Position numbers and translations under genes: made by a program. Under the pieces are notes generated by a model, which worked only from the letters and a program-made list of their open reading frames with translations, searched no databases and had not been told where the DNA came from. 45,078 bases of DNA, from positions 1-45,078 of the forward strand of contig JALHMN010000017.1 in assembly GCA_022844005.1 (NCBI GenBank), in the 5' to 3' direction. Source of the DNA: a bacterium. GTDB taxonomy: Bacteria > Pseudomonadota > Alphaproteobacteria > Ferrovibrionales > Ferrovibrionaceae. Positions 30,177 to 38,240 of the stretch are shown here, piece by piece (within the stretch, counting starts at the first letter, position 1; each line of letters opens with the position of its first letter).

Positions 30177-31250
30177 TCAGTCGACCAGCGACCAGGACAG
30201 AGCCGTTCCACGGGCGATTCCGGCGCGCGCCTTCCGGCCCAGTAGCGCCGGAAGGTACTTTGGCGCCAGGCCGTGGCCGGGACGAATGGAGCGCACGTTG
30301 TCTTCCGTGATTGCTTCACCCGCACTGATATCGCGAACGGCGTACAGGGAACGCCGGAACATGAGATTTGCTCGCTCGCTCGGCTCCCGTTCATAGGAGA
30401 CCCGGCCCAGCGCGGCATATGACGCTCTGCAGCCCTCAACAAGCTGCGCCAGTTCGGAAGGCTCCAACGAAAAGGCAGAATCCGGTCCACCGTCGGCCCG
30501 GGCCAAGGTCACATGCTTTTCGATCACGCGAGCCCCCAAGGCCACCGCGGCCATGGCAACCGCCGTGCCCAGCGTGTGGTCCGAGAGGCCGGCTACAACA
30601 TCGAAACGCGCGGCCAGATCGGCGATTGTGGCCAGATTGGCCTCTTCCGGTGGGGCAGGATAGGCACTGACACAATGCAGAAGCACGACTCCGCCTGCGC
30701 CGGCCATCCTCGCAGCTGCTACCGCTTCGCCGATTTCACCCAGGTCAGCCATTCCGGTCGAGATGATCAGCGGCTTGCCCGTTCGAGCGGCCGCTTCGAT
30801 CAGGGGTAGATCTATCACTTCGAAGGAAGCAATTTTGTAGGCGGGGGCGCCCAGATCCTCAAGCAGCCGAATCGCAGTGAGATCGAAGGGTGTGGAGAAG
30901 ACCGTAATGCCGAGGGCACGGCCCCGTGCAAACAACGCCTCGTGCCATTCCCAAGGGGTATGTGCCTCATTGTAGAGATCGTAGAGCCGCCGCCCCGCCC
31001 ACGGACCGCCATCGATACGGAAATCCGGCCCGTCGTGATCAAGCGTGATGGTATCGGCGGTGTAGGTCTGCAGCTTCACCGCATCGGCCCCGGCTGCCTT
31101 GGCGGCAGCCATCAGCGCCAAGGCGCGATCCAGCTTGCCGTTGTGGTTCCCGGACAGTTCGGCAATCAGGTACGGAGGTGAATGCTGCGCGATTTCGCGC
31201 CCGGCGATGGCGAATCCACGCGAAGCAGCAGAATCAACCACGGCCTTCAA
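30177..31250 (-). CDS. pseI: Pseudaminic acid synthase (NeuB family)
   Basis: 357 aa. Condenses a 2,4-diacetamido hexose with phosphoenolpyruvate to make pseudaminic acid. PYLIAELSGNHNGKLDRALALM, AVKLQTYTADTITLD, STPFDLTAIRLLEDLGAPAYKIASFE and ALGARVIEKHVTLAR are typical PseI, as opposed to NeuB, wording. A C-terminal SAF-like domain (SLYAVRDISAGEAITEDNVRSIRPGHGLAP) closes the chain. The N-terminus is about 10 residues longer than usual. The reading frame opens with TTG 31250, inside the marR 3' end; GTG 31241 is an alternative. No other pseudaminic acid genes (pseB, C, H, G, F) lie in the window. Confidence 0.9.
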   Translation of the reverse strand: MKAVVDSAASRGFAIAGREIAQHSPPYLIAELSGNHNGKLDRALALMAAAKAAGADAVKLQTYTADTITLDHDGPDFRIDGGPWAGRRLYDLYNEAHTPWEWHEALFARGRALGITVFSTPFDLTAIRLLEDLGAPAYKIASFEVIDLPLIEAAARTGKPLIISTGMADLGEIGEAVAAARMAGAGGVVLLHCVSAYPAPPEEANLATIADLAARFDVVAGLSDHTLGTAVAMAAVALGARVIEKHVTLARADGGPDSAFSLEPSELAQLVEGCRASYAALGRVSYEREPSERANLMFRRSLYAVRDISAGEAITEDNVRSIRPGHGLAPKYLPALLGRKARAGIARGTALSWSLVD

Positions 31251-31761
31251 TGAAATCGTCCCAGTAGCGCTCTATCCGGCGCATAAGTTTAAGGGCGCCA
31301 CCCACCGAGCCGTCTCCGGCAAAGGCTGTGATCGCCTTGGCCTGTCGCTCTTCCAAGTCTCGGACGCGCGCGATCAGGGCGAGCCCTTTCTCGGTGACAC
31401 GCAACAAAGTGGAGCGTCGGTCGCGCGGTGAGCGCTTCTGTTCAAGGTATTCGCACTCAACCAGTTTCTTGATGTTGTAGGACGCATTCGAGCCTTGGTA
31501 GTAGCCGCGATCCATCAGATTGCGGACGTTGATCTCCTCCCGACCTATGTTGCTGAGCAGCATGCACTGCACCGGATTGATGTCGTGCACCTCGAGCCTA
31601 TCGAGTTCAGCACGGAGCACATCGAGAAATCGGCGATGAAGGCGCTCGATCAGTTGCGTGAGTTCGCGAAAGTCGTCCGGAGCCGGCGGCTTCGCCGGAG
31701 CGGGCGCCGGGCGGGCGGAAGTCGAAGAATGAATTGCCGTATCGCTGCGCTGCATGTCCAT
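31234..31761 (-). CDS. MarR/LdtR-like winged-helix regulator
   Basis: 175 aa. The winged helix is in INVRNLMDRGYYQGSNASYNIKKLVECEYLEQ with wing RSPRDRRSTLLRVTEKG. The wording RGYYxGSNxSYNxKKL matches the LdtR-type alphaproteobacterial MarR subgroup. About 35 residues at the N-terminus are Ser/Pro/Ala-rich. Starts ATG 31761 or 31755 are both possible; the frame open to 31845 adds Arg-rich residues unlike the family. Upstream is a pair of direct repeats, perhaps its own operator. Overlaps pseI by 17 nt, so it may be co-transcribed with it. Confidence 0.85.
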   Translation of the reverse strand: MDMQRSDTAIHSSTSARPAPAPAKPPAPDDFRELTQLIERLHRRFLDVLRAELDRLEVHDINPVQCMLLSNIGREEINVRNLMDRGYYQGSNASYNIKKLVECEYLEQKRSPRDRRSTLLRVTEKGLALIARVRDLEERQAKAITAFAGDGSVGGALKLMRRIERYWDDFIEGRG

Positions 31762-31849
31762 CGGGGCTCTGTGTCCTCGGGGTTGCCGCCTGCCGGCACG
31801 AACCTGCGTCGAGACGCGCAAGCAAGTACCGACGAGGGCGGCCACGACG

Positions 31850-31882
31850 TTCAGCTGAATCTAGTAAAATTTCAGTGAATCT
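31850..31882. promoter_or_regulatory. Direct repeats, possible operator
   Basis: TTCAGCTGAATCT (31850-31862) and TTCAGTGAATCT (31871-31882) start 21 bp apart, two turns of the helix, in the 202-bp gap between divergent marR and the DUF2336 gene. The first contains the palindrome TTCAGCTGAA. Suits a dimeric regulator, perhaps the adjacent MarR. Confidence 0.45.
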
Positions 31883-31963
31883 CTGGCGGACTTTATTGGT
31901 AACGCGTCAAATCCAGAGGCGCCTTTCAGAGACGCTTAAGATTCGTTGCTTAACACTGGTCGC

Positions 31964-33043
31964 ATGCACGGCAGCGACACCCTTTTGTCCCTGGCTCAAG
32001 ACCGCTCGCGTCCCGCGCGCTTAGCGCTGTTCAGGACGATGGGAGACCTGTTGCTTGGCCCCGCGGCTGACCTGTCGGATCGCGAGCGCGCCGAAGCCGC
32101 CGGAATCCTCGAACGCCTTCTCACTCAGGTCGAGGCCGACGTCCGCGCCGCTTTATCCGCCGAACTTGCCGCTCGCGACGATATTCCGCACAGCCTCGTC
32201 ATGGCGCTCGCCAGCGACGAGATCAAGGTTGCCCGGCCCGTACTGCTGAAGAGCCCACTGCTGGACGACGCCGATTTGATCGAGATCGTGCGGATGCGTT
32301 CGCGCGAACACCGCATTGCGGTCGCCACGCGCCCGGATATCGCGGAGGTCGTCAGCGATGCCCTGATCGAGACCGGCGAGGAATTGGTCGTAGAAGCGTT
32401 GATTCGGAACACCGAGTCCCATCTGTCACGGCGCGCCATCGAATATTTGGTCGGCGAATCACAGAGAGTTGACCGATTCCGTGAGCCGCTGGTGCGACGC
32501 CAAGATCTTCCGAAGGATCTCGCGCAGCGAATGTACGCATGGGTCGCCGAGTCCCTTCGTGCTGAAATCGCTGATCGGTTTGCCGTCGATCCTGTCGCGC
32601 TCAACGAAGCAATCGCGGCAACGGTGGTTGCGGATCAACCGAATGCCCTTGATCTCGCGACAAAGCTTGCCCGAAGCGCCCGGGCCCAGGGCCTATTGAA
32701 CGAGCGATATGTTCTACAGAACCTGCGCGCTGGGCACATGACCGTTGCCTCGGCGGGCATGGCGGAACTGGCTGGTGTAGCGCCCGATCTCGCGCGACGT
32801 TGCCTACTGGATCCGACCGGCGAAGGCGTGGCCATGTGTTCGCGGGCAGCGGGTATCGGCCGCGCGGGTGCCGCGATCCTGCTTGCACTCACTGCCAAGG
32901 CCAGCGATCGCCCCACGGCGGGAAGACTTGGGAATGCCGAGTTGGTCGCTCTCTACGACCGCGTCAGCGTTCCCCAGGCCCAGGCGGCCCTGCGCTTCTG
33001 GGGTCGGCACCCAGACCTGCTCGCAGCCGGGGCGCGAGCCTGA
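31964..33043 (+). CDS. DUF2336 protein, first copy
   Basis: 359 aa. Helical, probably an alpha-solenoid. Conserved DUF2336 segments: LASDEIKVARPVLLKSPLLDDADLIEIVRMRSREHRIAVATRPDI, and DLPKDLAQRMYAWVAESLRAEI. A similar protein is encoded 1.6 kb downstream, with LDDADLIEIVRMRSREHRIAVA versus LQDVDLIEIVRERTQQHRLAIA. ATG 31964 is preferred over a TTG at 31946; no strong ribosome-binding site is seen. Its stop overlaps the start of the histidine kinase by one base (TGATG), so the two are coupled. Biochemical role unknown. Confidence 0.85.
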   Translation: MHGSDTLLSLAQDRSRPARLALFRTMGDLLLGPAADLSDRERAEAAGILERLLTQVEADVRAALSAELAARDDIPHSLVMALASDEIKVARPVLLKSPLLDDADLIEIVRMRSREHRIAVATRPDIAEVVSDALIETGEELVVEALIRNTESHLSRRAIEYLVGESQRVDRFREPLVRRQDLPKDLAQRMYAWVAESLRAEIADRFAVDPVALNEAIAATVVADQPNALDLATKLARSARAQGLLNERYVLQNLRAGHMTVASAGMAELAGVAPDLARRCLLDPTGEGVAMCSRAAGIGRAGAAILLALTAKASDRPTAGRLGNAELVALYDRVSVPQAQAALRFWGRHPDLLAAGARA

Positions 33044-34593
33044 TGGACACGGCACCGCAAACCAACGCGCTCCCATCGGCACTCGCAGATCTCGCCGCCA
33101 TAGTCGAGCATTTGGGCATCGCTTACGTATCGGATCGCGACGGCCATATGGTCGCCGCGAGTACAGGATATCGGGAACTGATGGCACTGCGCTCCGACGT
33201 GCTACTCGTGCCCGCCCGTCATTTCCCGCTGAGCAATGCCGCCATGATGGCAGGACAAGCTCTCGAAGGACTCGAGCGAATCGGACGCGGAATTGGGGCG
33301 CGGCATCTCCTGGTTCGCCATCTGCCGGTGAAGGCACCCGACGGCTCCATCGTCGGAGCACTGGGCATACTGAGCGACACCGGAGCACAGTTGGAGGACG
33401 ATGCACCCAGCCGGGACCGCCGCCGGCTACAGGACTTCATAAGGGCATCGGTCGACTGGGTCTGGGAAACCGATCGTCGCGGTGTCCTGAGTTTCGTATC
33501 CGATCGCATCGTCGATGTGCTGGGCCTGCCGCCGGTCCTTCTGCACGGCCGGGCATTGAGCAGTCTTGGCTCTATGGTCGCTCCCGCACCCGGCGGGTTG
33601 TCGCTCGAGGCGTTCATGGACGCGCGGCGACCGTTCCGAGACGTGCAACTCATTTTGGCCGACAAGGAGGACAAAGAACGACGGTTCATGCTGCACGGCG
33701 TTCCGGCGTTTGATCAGGCGGGCAATTTCACGGGCTTTCGCGGCACCGCGACTGACATCTCGGCACAACACGAGATGGCATCTGCTCTGGCAGCAACTCG
33801 CAAGCAACTGGACACCGCCAGGACCGACCTTGCCAGCCTCAATCTGCGCCTTGACCGCGCATTGAATAGCGCAAACCGCGCCGCACGTGGCAAGAGCGAG
33901 TTTCTGGCAACCATGTCGCATGAATTGCGCACGCCGCTCAACGCCGTCATCGGGTTTGCCGACCTAATCGTCGGCGACGAAGTACCTTCGGACGCTCAAC
34001 GGTATCGCGACTATGCCGCCGATATCGCAAGAGCCGGGCACCATTTGCTCCGACTTATTGACGACCTTCTGGACACGGCACGGATCGAGGATACGCAGTT
34101 GCGCCTCGAAATGGCCGACCGACAGATTAAGCCGATCTTTTTGGAGGCTCGCTCCATTGCGCAGGCGAGATGGCGTGGTCAGGAGTTCGAAATCGCCGTC
34201 GACGTCGTGCCGGATGATCTTGTCGCCACCACCGACCGCACGCGGCTGACTCAGATTGTTCTCAACCTGCTGGACAACGCTGTCCGCGTTGCCCCGCCCG
34301 GCAGCACCGTTACGATCCGAGCGCGCGCCGAGGGTGACAATGTGGCGATTGACGTAGTCGATCGAGGCGCCGGTATCCCTCCTGACCGGCGAGGGACGAT
34401 CTTCGAGGCATTTGGGCGATTGGAACCCAGCCTGATTGCCAAACGGTCGGGTGGTCTCGGCATAGGTCTATCGATCTCCCGCTCGCTTGCTCGCCTGATG
34501 GACGGCGATCTCTCCCTGCTTGAGAGCGGGCCAAATGGATCTCGGTTCCGACTGACGCTGAAGAGACCTTCCGCGCCAGCCGCAATTTGTTAA
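33043..34593 (+). CDS. Soluble PAS-domain sensor histidine kinase
   Basis: 516 aa, no membrane segment. Two sensor regions: a PAS-like domain around 15-105 (EHLGIAYVSDRDGHMVAASTGYREL) and a PAS domain around 120-235 (FIRASVDWVWETDRRGVLSFVSDRIVDVLG), then a coiled coil (about 245-275). HisKA follows with FLATMSHELRTPLNAVIGFADLI, His293 being the expected phosphorylation site, and HATPase with NLLDNAVRVAPPG, DRGAGIPP and GLGIGLSISR. ATG 33043 overlaps the DUF2336 stop. The frame upstream to 32800 is an artefact. No response regulator is adjacent, so its partner must be elsewhere. Confidence 0.92.
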   Translation: MDTAPQTNALPSALADLAAIVEHLGIAYVSDRDGHMVAASTGYRELMALRSDVLLVPARHFPLSNAAMMAGQALEGLERIGRGIGARHLLVRHLPVKAPDGSIVGALGILSDTGAQLEDDAPSRDRRRLQDFIRASVDWVWETDRRGVLSFVSDRIVDVLGLPPVLLHGRALSSLGSMVAPAPGGLSLEAFMDARRPFRDVQLILADKEDKERRFMLHGVPAFDQAGNFTGFRGTATDISAQHEMASALAATRKQLDTARTDLASLNLRLDRALNSANRAARGKSEFLATMSHELRTPLNAVIGFADLIVGDEVPSDAQRYRDYAADIARAGHHLLRLIDDLLDTARIEDTQLRLEMADRQIKPIFLEARSIAQARWRGQEFEIAVDVVPDDLVATTDRTRLTQIVLNLLDNAVRVAPPGSTVTIRARAEGDNVAIDVVDRGAGIPPDRRGTIFEAFGRLEPSLIAKRSGGLGIGLSISRSLARLMDGDLSLLESGPNGSRFRLTLKRPSAPAAIC

Positions 34594-34618
34594 CCAGTCC
34601 GGCGCATTAGTGAAAGCC

Positions 34619-35764
34619 ATGATGGCAGAAGCTTCCCCGGCAACGATGGCCCACCGAAGCCCTGACGCGGAAAAGCTGCTGGAGTTGGCGGCCCGCAAAT
34701 CCACGCAAGGTCGTGAAACCCTCTATCGCACCCTGTGGGATTTCTTCGAGCAACGCAGCGGCCTCCTTACCCAGGCCGAGCGCGATCTGATGACAGACAT
34801 CCTGCGACAGCTGAGCCGAGAGATCGAAATGACGATCCGGGTTGAGTTGTCCAAGCGTCTCGCCGCACAGCCCGGCGCATCGCGCGAACTGGCGCGCATC
34901 CTGGCTGACGACCAGATCGAAGTAGCCTTCCCGATCCTGATGGAAAGTCGAGTGCTGCAGGATGTCGACCTGATCGAGATCGTGCGCGAACGCACACAGC
35001 AACACCGCCTTGCGATCGCTATGCGAGCCGATATCAGCGACGATGTCTGCAACGTCCTGGCCGACTGTGCCGACGACGATGTGACTGTCGCGATGTTGCG
35101 CAACACCACCGCGAGGATCGGCACCGGTCTATACGAGCGCCTTGGCGAGCAATCCCGTTCATCGGAGGCGTTGCAGGAGCCTCTTCTCGGCCGGCCGGAT
35201 CTGCCGCCCGGCGTGGCCCGGCGGATGTATGCATGGGTCTCCGCCGCGCTTCGCCATTTCATCGTCGGGAAATTCCAGCTCGATTTGGATACAATCGACG
35301 ACACGATCTCGCAGAGTCTTGCCGCCACAACTCACACCGGCAACGATGAACAGGCGAGTTCGCCCGCCATGACCATGGTTGATCGACTGGCGCGGGAGGG
35401 AAAGCTAACCAGCGACTTCCTGGTAAAGGCTCTGCGCCGTGGCGAGATCGCCGCTTTCGAGGCCGGGTTCGCGAAGCTCGCCGGCCTTCGATTGCAGTTG
35501 GCCAAGCGGATCATCTACGAACCGGGCGGCGAGGCGTTCGCTATCGCCTGTATTGCCGGTGCAATAGACCGGCCAAACTGTCTGAAGATGTTTGAGTTGA
35601 CACGCAAGGCGCACGAGATGCCAAGCAGGGAAGCAGCGGCGCAAGTAGATGCGCTTGCCGCGTTTTACGACAACACTTCGCGCGAGGCAGCCGAGGTGGT
35701 TGTGCGCAAATGGAGACGAGACCCAGAGTATCTGGCTGCCTTGAAGCAGATCGGTACGGCTTGA
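34619..35764 (+). CDS. DUF2336 protein, second copy
   Basis: 381 aa. Same family as the gene at 31964: ILADDQIEVAFPILMESRVLQDVDLIEIVRERTQQHRLAIAMRADI and DLPPGVARRMYAWVSAALRHFIVGKF. The N-terminus has an additional HRSPDAEKLLELAARKSTQGRETLYRTLWDFF block and the C-terminus continues with repeats to RKWRRDPEYLAALKQIG. 25 nt downstream of the kinase. Starts ATG 34619, ATG 34622 and GTG 34610 are possible; no strong ribosome-binding site decides. Function unknown. Confidence 0.83.
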   Translation: MMAEASPATMAHRSPDAEKLLELAARKSTQGRETLYRTLWDFFEQRSGLLTQAERDLMTDILRQLSREIEMTIRVELSKRLAAQPGASRELARILADDQIEVAFPILMESRVLQDVDLIEIVRERTQQHRLAIAMRADISDDVCNVLADCADDDVTVAMLRNTTARIGTGLYERLGEQSRSSEALQEPLLGRPDLPPGVARRMYAWVSAALRHFIVGKFQLDLDTIDDTISQSLAATTHTGNDEQASSPAMTMVDRLAREGKLTSDFLVKALRRGEIAAFEAGFAKLAGLRLQLAKRIIYEPGGEAFAIACIAGAIDRPNCLKMFELTRKAHEMPSREAAAQVDALAAFYDNTSREAAEVVVRKWRRDPEYLAALKQIGTA

Positions 35765-35786
35765 CCGCCTTCTTGCTTAAGGCAAT

Positions 35787-35807
35787 GCCCCCAATTTCGC
35801 TGGGGGC
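35787..35807 (+). terminator. Hairpin after the DUF2336-kinase operon
   Basis: GCCCCCA and TGGGGGC arms of 7 bp with a 7-nt loop, 23 nt past the second DUF2336 stop and before moaA. No U-tract follows, so this is at best a weak intrinsic terminator. Confidence 0.45.
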
Positions 35808-35832
35808 GAAAATCTGAAGCCGGCGCGCTATC

Positions 35833-36831
35833 ATGTCGACCATGATTGATCCATTCGGCCGCGACATCACCTATCTGCGTGTCTCAGTGACCGACCGGTG
35901 CGATTTCCGGTGCGTCTACTGCATGGCCGAGGATATGACCTTTCTCCCAAAGGCCGAGGTCCTAAGTCTCGAGGAACTGGACCGACTCTGCTCGGCCTTC
36001 GTGCGAAAAGGCGTCCGGAAGCTGCGCCTGACAGGGGGAGAGCCTCTAGTACGCCGCAATGTCATGCAGTTGATCCGCTCACTGGGCCGGCATTTGGACG
36101 CAGGCACGCTCGACGAATTGACGCTCACCACAAACGGCAGTCAGCTTTCGCGTTTCGCCGATGAATTGGTCGACGCCGGCGTGCGGCGGATAAATGTCTC
36201 GGTCGACACGTTGAATGCGGAACGCTTCCGCCGGCTTACCCGCTGGGGGCGGCTGGAACAGGTGCTCGACGGACTGCAGGCGGCAAAGAGGGCCGGGCTC
36301 GCCGTAAAGATCAACGCCGTGGCACTGAAAAATGAGAACGAGGATGAGTTCGATGCACTGGTCGAGTGGTGCGGTGGAGAGGGATTCGACCTCTGTTTGA
36401 TCGAAACGATGCCGCTTGGCGAGATCGACGGTGATCGCACGACGCAGTATCTGCCCCTCTCGCTGGTACGGGCGCGACTTGCGCGCCGGTGGACGCTACA
36501 GGACACGGATTACAGGACTGGCGGACCGGCGCGCTACATGTCCGTTAAAGAGACCGGCCAGCGTATCGGCTTCATCACTCCGCTGACCCACAACTTTTGC
36601 GAAAGTTGCAATCGAGTGCGCGTCACTTGCACCGGAACGCTCTACATGTGCCTGGGTCAGGACGATGCCGCCGACTTGCGAACACCGATAAGGGCTACCG
36701 CGGATGATTCCCTGCTTGATACCGCCATCGACGAGGCGATCGGCCGCAAGCCGAAGGGACATGACTTCGTGATCGACCGCCGCGCGAACCGCCCCTCGGT
36801 CAGCCGTCATATGAGCATGACCGGCGGCTGA
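35833..36831 (+). CDS. moaA: GTP 3',8-cyclase MoaA
   Basis: 332 aa radical SAM enzyme for the first step of molybdenum cofactor synthesis, acting with MoaC. The N-terminal cluster is C23-x3-C27-x2-C30 (RCDFRCVYC). The second cluster is C256-x2-C259-x13-C273 ([19 protein letters not shown]). [13 protein letters not shown] is the SAM-binding block. The C-terminus ends in the catalytic Gly-Gly. No other moa genes in the window. The hairpin and spacing suggest its own promoter in the 68 bp upstream; no clear box was seen. Confidence 0.96.
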
Positions 36832-36836
36832 TCCGG

Positions 36837-37334
36837 TTATTCCAGCAGGATCTGATGCGCGAAGACCTCGCCGTCCGAAACCGTAACCTGCTGGAAGCCG
36901 ATCAGGCGCAAAAGGTCAAAGAAGGTGAAAAGTTCCTCCACCCGCATCTCACGCACCAGTGGCGCGGTTCTAGCCGTTGCCGTGAGTTGGGCGAGCAATC
37001 CCCTCGCCTGATAGAGTGTGCGGAATCCCTGATCCCCGAGAGACACGATGATCAGCTTTTCCGCCTGCTCGCCCTTCGCGAAGATTGCGAAGGTGGGTGC
37101 ATAGGGCTTTGCCAACTGCTGTTGGGTCAGGCCCGTTACAAATGCAAGCCGGGTGGATCGTGTTGCATCTTTCAACTGATTTGCGCGCGACCCATACACC
37201 TCGCGGCTGGTGACTTCAGGATAGTAGTATCCTTCGTGACGCTCGCCTGATCCACCCGCGGTGTCTTCACCGGCAGCCAATACCGCGCCGCTAGTCAGAA
37301 AAAGCAAAACGATCAATCCCAATGCCCCACGCAT
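36837..37334 (-). CDS. Exported protein of unknown function, convergent with moaA
   Basis: 165 aa. Signal peptide [20 protein letters not shown] with ALA cleavage site. Then [45 protein letters not shown] and [26 protein letters not shown] recall this family in alphaproteobacteria labelled molybdopterin-guanine dinucleotide biosynthesis protein A, but it lacks the MobA GGxSxRMG motif and is exported, so that label looks wrong. AGGAGG precedes ATG 37334. The open frame to 38246 is antisense to nadK. Function unknown. Confidence 0.75.
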
Positions 37335-37472
37335 GCCATCCTCCTGGACTGCGAGCGAATGATGGCCTTCTCGGCCGAAGCCGGCAATGCTGCGTCGGTA
37401 GCGCCGCGGATGGGCTCCGATATACTTCCCTGCCAGTCGGCGAGACGTTTTCAACAGTGGATCGACCTGCAA

Positions 37473-38240
37473 ATGGCGTATGAAAAGATCACGTTCCTTG
37501 CCGATCGGAACGACAACGCTCAGGAAGCGATAAAACTTCTCGAGCAACGCTATTCGAATGTTCCGGTCGCGGAAGCCGATGTGATCGTCGCCCTTGGTGG
37601 TGACGGCTTCATGTTGCGCACGCTGCATCGCAATCTCAGCCGCAACATTCCAATCTACGGTATGAACAAGGGTACGGTTGGATTCCTGATGAATAGCTTT
37701 CAGGTCGACCTTCTCACCGAAAGGTTGGCCCGATCGGAAACAACTACATTGCATCCATTGCGGATGCGCGCGTTGCGCGAAGCCGGTACCGAGCAGGAAG
37801 CTATCGCCATCAACGAGGTGAGTCTTCTGCGACAAAGCCGCCAGGCCGCCAAGATCCGGATCCATATCGACGGCAGAGTGCGTATAGACGAGTTGATCTG
37901 CGACGGCGTGATGGTGGCAACACCCGCCGGCAGCACGGCCTACAATCTCTCCGCCCATGGCCCCATCTTGCCTCTCAATGCCGGAGCGCTGGCCTTGACG
38001 CCAATCAGCGCCTTTCGGCCACGACGCTGGCGCGGCGCGCTCCTGCAACGGAATGCCAAGGTGAAACTCGAAATCCTCGACAACTACAAGCGCCCCGTCA
38101 GTGCCGTTGCCGACTTGACCGAAGTACGCGAGGTGGTGGAAGTCGACATCGAGGAAGCGCGGGACATAAGTCTGCGCCTTCTGTTTGATCCCGAGCACAA
38201 TCTCGAAGAACGCATCCTCAATGAGCAGTTCACGCCCTGA
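37473..38240 (+). CDS. nadK: NAD kinase
   Basis: 255 aa. Phosphorylates NAD to [15 protein letters not shown] with GGDG at 42-45, AINEVSLLR, and [27 protein letters not shown] are the NadK blocks; the last is the NAD-binding conserved region. ATG 37473 ([12 protein letters not shown]) fits the short alphaproteobacterial type; the frame open from 37359 is not supported by similarity and no strong ribosome-binding site is seen for either. It is divergent from the exported protein gene with 138 bp between starts. Confidence 0.93.

Follow-up and report, generated by a model that had tools for sequence, protein, structure and literature searches.

Auxiliary regulators of histidine kinases are known, such as SpmX for DivJ, FixT for FixL and KipI for KinA. 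In each case a separate protein is tied to one kinase, which it adjusts or places, and the same is proposed here for a protein that we term DUF2336-A. We know of no auxiliary kinase regulator that is a DUF2336 solenoid. Kinases of the DivJ/PleC/PdhS type are abundant in Alphaproteobacteria and many of them are orphans without a known input. DivJ and PleC are polar proteins and both have DivK as their target (PMC4211667).

DUF2336 was described in an earlier note on this DNA, made from the sequence alone, as a domain without known function. This description needs correction, since SpbR of Caulobacter belongs to DUF2336 and the family is thus not wholly uncharacterised. We found no named DUF2336 protein other than SpbR, which reportedly binds PopZ. 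By its title, the article on SpbR of Caulobacter crescentus (Wang and Bowman, 2019, Mol Microbiol 111:1700, doi 10.1111/mmi.14247; cited in PMC12700997) links the protein to cell-pole development and proteolysis. Within an open-access collection of 5.39 million papers we recovered none that has DUF2336 by name or by its accession PF10098, and none that combines SpbR, PopZ and Caulobacter. We show here that a DUF2336 gene and the gene of a soluble PAS kinase constitute a real and conserved module, to which a second DUF2336 gene is an add-on.

Results

The window, which is the whole stretch of 45,078 nucleotides that was analysed, stems from a genome assembly of 3.68 Mb that is 73% complete. The three genes of interest lie on its forward strand. 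DUF2336-A (31964..33043; start ATG 31964, stop TGA 33041-33043; PF10098 E=1.3e-57) encodes a protein of 359 aa that is predicted to form an all-helical solenoid and is the proposed kinase partner. The gene of a soluble sensor histidine kinase of 516 aa follows (33043..34593; stop TAA 34591-34593), and its ATG (33043-33045) shares one base with the stop codon of DUF2336-A (TGATG). After a gap of 16 bp comes DUF2336-B (34610..35764; PF10098 E=8.9e-65), a paralog of 384 aa that starts with GTG 34610 or ATG 34619 and is about 34% identical to DUF2336-A. Both match the PF10098 profile over its full length; A scores 195.7 bits and B scores 219.2 bits at a Pfam gathering score of 34.6 bits. Open reading frame coordinates and Pfam matches thus bear out the earlier description of the locus as a soluble PAS kinase bracketed by two related DUF2336 genes with a one-base overlap. 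That the triad comes without a response regulator is likewise correct, because the 45 kb window is free of receiver domains and the operon hence holds no response-regulator gene.

The kinase carries a first PAS domain (33118..33387, + strand; PAS_4 E=1.4e-10), a second one that scores below the curated cut-off (33454..33762, + strand; PAS_9, 22.7 bits against 27), a HisKA/DHp domain with a DivJ/PdhS-type H-box (33892..34092, + strand; PF00512 E=1.4e-18; codon of the phospho-His293 at 33919-33921) and a HATPase_c catalytic domain (34234..34566, + strand; PF02518 E=8.7e-25). With the H-box MSHELRTPLN, which includes the phospho-His, and HATPase_c it is a HisKA sensor kinase. It appears to be soluble, since its highest 19-residue Kyte-Doolittle mean is 1.41 and a membrane helix is not evident. 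All 35 DUF2336-linked kinases examined share one H-box type, compared to 10/23 other kinases tested from this genome. This type matches a DivJ reference (L268) and two PdhS references (L269/L270), which are the best NCBIfam-model matches in the sample and lie below the equivalog cut-offs of those models. Judged by the H-box/DHp motif, the linked kinases belong to the DivJ/PleC/PdhS class, a broad class whose H-box type this genome has in at least 10 further kinases. The window kinase resembles this class in the HELRTPLNA..GF H-box followed by the pattern Y..YA.DI...HLL.LI.D.LD, in having several PAS domains, in the absence of an adjacent response regulator and in the presence of DivK in the genome. 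However, it is soluble, shorter and DUF2336-linked, and it is not an equivalog: it reaches 124 bits with the DivJ model (cut-off 1000) and 100 bits with the PdhS model (cut-off 2000), and equivalog searches placed no DivJ or PdhS ortholog in this genome. In a kinase tree with the references it sits on a long branch and groups with high support only with the ortholog from its genus.

Kinases of the DivJ/PleC/PdhS type ordinarily have no response regulator next to them. By the class of its motif, the kinase most likely acts on a DivK-like regulator in trans, which would explain why the operon encodes none. A candidate single-domain regulator of this kind is found on another contig (C29:11877-12233; 56% identity to the Caulobacter sequence), and DivK is present in 23/23 genomes of the first sample that have an A-kinase pair. 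DUF2336 and a DivK-like regulator occur together in 90 genomes, each alone in 12 and neither in 78, a distribution that is confounded by lineage and genome size. Receiver domains near DUF2336 genes reach 0.037/kb (3 cases) against about 0.02/kb, with no clear enrichment and no peak like that of the kinases.

A PF10098 search of 192 alphaproteobacterial genomes found DUF2336 proteins in 101 above the cut-off and in 102 at E<=0.001, frequently with more than one copy per genome. The survey set comprised 120 loci and the window with 135 DUF2336 ORFs, which are the best-scoring matches, so that rare divergent members are under-represented. Survey profiles were built from the kinase and DUF2336 proteins of the window itself and complemented with the CheY seed. 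Antisense ORFs over DUF2336 genes looked like conserved neighbours and were set aside as false. Within 300 bp of the DUF2336 ORFs kinases reach a density of 0.41/kb, compared to 0.007-0.008/kb at 2-9 kb, an enrichment of about 50-fold, and nearly all kinases close to the 135 ORFs follow directly downstream on the same strand. On the other hand, 101/135 sampled DUF2336 genes lack a kinase on their own strand within 300 bp, thus the DUF2336 fold as such needs no kinase. We also scanned genome contigs with relatives of A and B, which gave a named sample of 80 loci from Sneathiella, Kordiimonas, Kiloniella, Emcibacter and others; with A or B as query, 69/80 named relatives have a same-strand kinase directly downstream. 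Several DUF2336-kinase pairs overlap by 1-4 bases, and natural fusions of DUF2336 with a kinase or a receiver are absent among the sampled ORFs. Besides the window, full triads were found six times in the first sample and 16 times in the named sample, hence 22 times over both, with one or two loci possibly counted twice. The earlier note had set such a survey as a test of its view that DUF2336 proteins couple to kinases, with rare proximity to kinases speaking against it. The linkage is strongly conserved and the view therefore persists, with the restriction that most DUF2336 genes, above all those of the SpbR-like clade, do not stand beside kinases.

In a tree of the 135 proteins, 63 rows form an SpbR-like clade and, apart from it, 57 rows form a group in which both window proteins fall. 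A kinase adjoins 31/57 members of the latter and 3/63 SpbR-like ones (Fisher p=6e-10, kinship ignored), and the kinase-link label is clustered on the tree, with 0/500 shuffles as low. The DUF2336-A clade (SH-aLRT 99) lies upstream of a kinase in 8/8 cases, and the DUF2336-B clade has 10 members, five of which lie downstream of one. Against the SpbR model NF052659, which they match over about 270-285 residues, A scores 149.2 bits and B 167.1 bits, below the curated cut-off of 400, while another gene of this genome (C23:37319-38392) reaches 448 bits and is its SpbR ortholog. A and B are thus paralogs of SpbR and not SpbR itself. They share the DUF2336 family and a similar length with it, but SpbR-like genes seldom adjoin a kinase and mostly lack the marker residue of the kinase-linked subfamily, a His at position 116 of DUF2336-A (codon 32309..32311, + strand), which is present in 46/48 kinase-linked members compared to 4/12 SpbR-like proteins. 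Asp85 is conserved in both subfamilies irrespective of the kinase link.

The AF2 model of DUF2336-A is an all-helical solenoid (pLDDT 90.8, pTM 0.65). A Foldseek search with the model gave no match at E<=0.001, and the DUF2336 sequence has no credible relative in the PDB. The nearest folds are a PP2A scaffold (9mf5_A, Z 10.2), an LRV protein (1lrv, Z 8.1) and YibA (1oyz, Z 8.0). Like the HEAT/ARM/LRV alpha-solenoid scaffolds, the model stacks short helix pairs over residues 1-222, but there is no sequence relation and the Z values are inside the range of unrelated helical repeats. To look for contact between A and the kinase, a co-fold of the natural in-frame pair L089, read through its TGA (1060 residues, as a monomer, with a mostly unpaired alignment), gave pTM 0.39, a linker pLDDT below 50 and no sign of contact; its alignment was trimmed, as an earlier version had placed kinase N-termini on DUF2336 columns.

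The triad is flanked by the divergent gene of a MarR-family regulator (31234..31845, - strand; HTH_27/MarR_2), which is present in most Sneathiellales triads, and by two conserved downstream neighbours, moaA (35833..36831, + strand; Mob_synth_C E=1.3e-37) and the NAD kinase gene nadK (37359..38240, + strand; NAD_kinase domains). In Sneathiellales the whole order marR-A-kinase-B-moaA-nadK is conserved. Where the DUF2336 proteins of two loci are less than 50% identical, a homolog is common to the 2.5-kb upstream flanks in 1% of the pairs and to the regions behind the kinase in 3-35%, and the kinase is retained. Flanks that are replaced while the kinase is kept point to selection on the A-kinase pair and not to mere inheritance of the region. 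In line with this, the partial rank correlation of distances between A and the kinase is 0.80 given nadK (46 loci), 0.71 given moaA and nadK (28 loci) and 0.62 given B, moaA and nadK (16 loci), compared to 0.19 for B and the kinase (16 loci). A correlates with the DHp-CA part of the kinase at 0.65 and with the PAS part at 0.23. Since moaA and nadK also correlate at 0.73 in one set, part of the A-kinase correlation may be shared gene history. Correlated evolution can in general arise by co-transfer without contact.

Discussion

DUF2336-A stays with the kinase across several bacterial orders and is therefore probably a dedicated kinase partner. We propose that both genes are inherited as one two-gene module in which DUF2336-A, as a cytosolic alpha-solenoid, would bind the kinase, most likely at the DHp-CA core, and would tune the balance of kinase and phosphatase activity, place the kinase in the cell, or both. 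The kinase in turn would act on the DivK-like regulator encoded elsewhere, and DUF2336-B would be a paralog that joined behind the kinase, chiefly in Sneathiellales, as an accessory or second-state partner. To this reading as a whole we give a probability of about 0.5. A physical contact of A with the kinase, the direction in which A would regulate it, DivK as the target and any polar location are what we infer beyond gene order and correlated change. The suggestion of the earlier note that DUF2336 proteins are kinase regulators or scaffolds fits DUF2336-A, with its predicted alpha-solenoid fold and its correlated evolution, and fits B less well, which is weakly correlated and often adjoins moaA without a kinase.

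A possible, though rather unlikely, alternative is that DUF2336-A is mainly a localization adaptor that ties the kinase to a pole organizer such as PopZ, as its paralog SpbR may do, and has no direct catalytic effect. A PF10691 protein, which we take to be PopZ, is encoded in 100/102 DUF2336 genomes compared to 62/90 others, but it is found in most genomes regardless. DivJ and PleC are polar (PMC4211667) and the title of the SpbR paper (cited in PMC12700997) names cell-pole development and proteolysis; A and B, however, do not belong to the SpbR equivalog, with 149 and 167 bits at a cut-off of 400, and the rate of DUF2336-A tracks DHp-CA more than PAS. It is improbable that A and the kinase are mere neighbours whose gene order is conserved without functional contact. 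The conservation of marR-A-kinase-B-moaA-nadK as a whole in Sneathiellales and the absence of a predicted contact in the co-fold (a monomer with a mostly unpaired alignment) would agree with this, but the pair persists where its flanks are completely replaced, several pairs overlap by 1-4 bases, and the co-evolution of A and kinase is specific.

That DUF2336-B is the main partner, or that A, kinase and B form an obligatory complex, seems very doubtful. B starts only 16 bp behind the kinase and 22 other triads exist (one or two possibly in both samples), yet most kinase-linked loci lack B, its partial correlation with the kinase is 0.19 (16 loci), and at the loci L093, L113 and L146 relatives of B adjoin moaA without a kinase. 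Hardly credible is the idea that DUF2336 proteins stand in for the absent response regulator, whether as atypical phospho-acceptors, a role raised in the earlier note, or as phosphotransfer proteins. His116 of A, kept in 46/48 kinase-linked members and 4/12 SpbR-like ones, is a weak lead in this direction; the predicted fold, however, is a solenoid and neither a receiver nor a clear Hpt four-helix bundle, the conservation of Asp85 extends to both subfamilies with or without a kinase link, and a DivK-like protein in trans would already account for the missing regulator.

Returning to DUF2336-A as a kinase partner, a DUF2336 family that follows some of the DivJ/PleC/PdhS-type kinases across orders predicts the partner of each and which kinases belong together, and DUF2336 gains two testable roles, as SpbR-like polar proteins and as kinase partners. 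Tentatively, the kinase-dedicated branch, with His116 at its working surface, might be a new class of accessory switches that determine whether many different DivJ/PdhS-type kinases of Alphaproteobacteria give kinase or phosphatase output, so that each pair would connect its own cytosolic PAS signal to the DivK circuit of cell fate.

The triad had also been placed next to a flagellin-sugar locus. The flagellin-sugar gene neuB is close by only within the same genus, and a role of the triad in flagellin glycosylation was rejected on this ground. What is conserved next to the triad beyond the genus are the genes for the MarR-family regulator, MoaA and NAD kinase, and they are common to the window and most triads of the named sample.

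Most triads of the Sneathiellales, in which two DUF2336 genes flank a histidine kinase gene, retain the order divergent marR, DUF2336, kinase, DUF2336, moaA and NAD kinase, which in the window spans 31234-38240, and this conserved order keeps signalling genes together with genes for molybdenum-cofactor and NADP synthesis. The second DUF2336 gene of the window's triad, DUF2336-B (34610-35764), may have a separate link of its own to moaA, because its relatives directly precede moaA without a kinase at three sampled alphaproteobacterial loci (L093, L113 and L146). On a different branch, a phosphoglycerate kinase gene lies on the opposite strand downstream of the DUF2336-kinase pair (L067, L089, L094 and L111).

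Further DUF2336 genes were found in other arrangements. The genome of the window carries a divergent fourth copy with no kinase adjoining (contig C37, 27180-27815), and two overlapping DUF2336 genes stand in tandem at L129 (8227-10498). In another sampled genome, G052 (contig C6, 45266-47684 and 58749-60305), a convergent DUF2336 gene pair is located about 11 kb from the sample's best match to the NCBIfam DivJ model, a match below the equivalog cut-off. Among the kinases adjoining DUF2336 genes, two have the H-box HELMTPLN instead of HELRTPLN (L115, 6776-8368; L117, 9424-11007).
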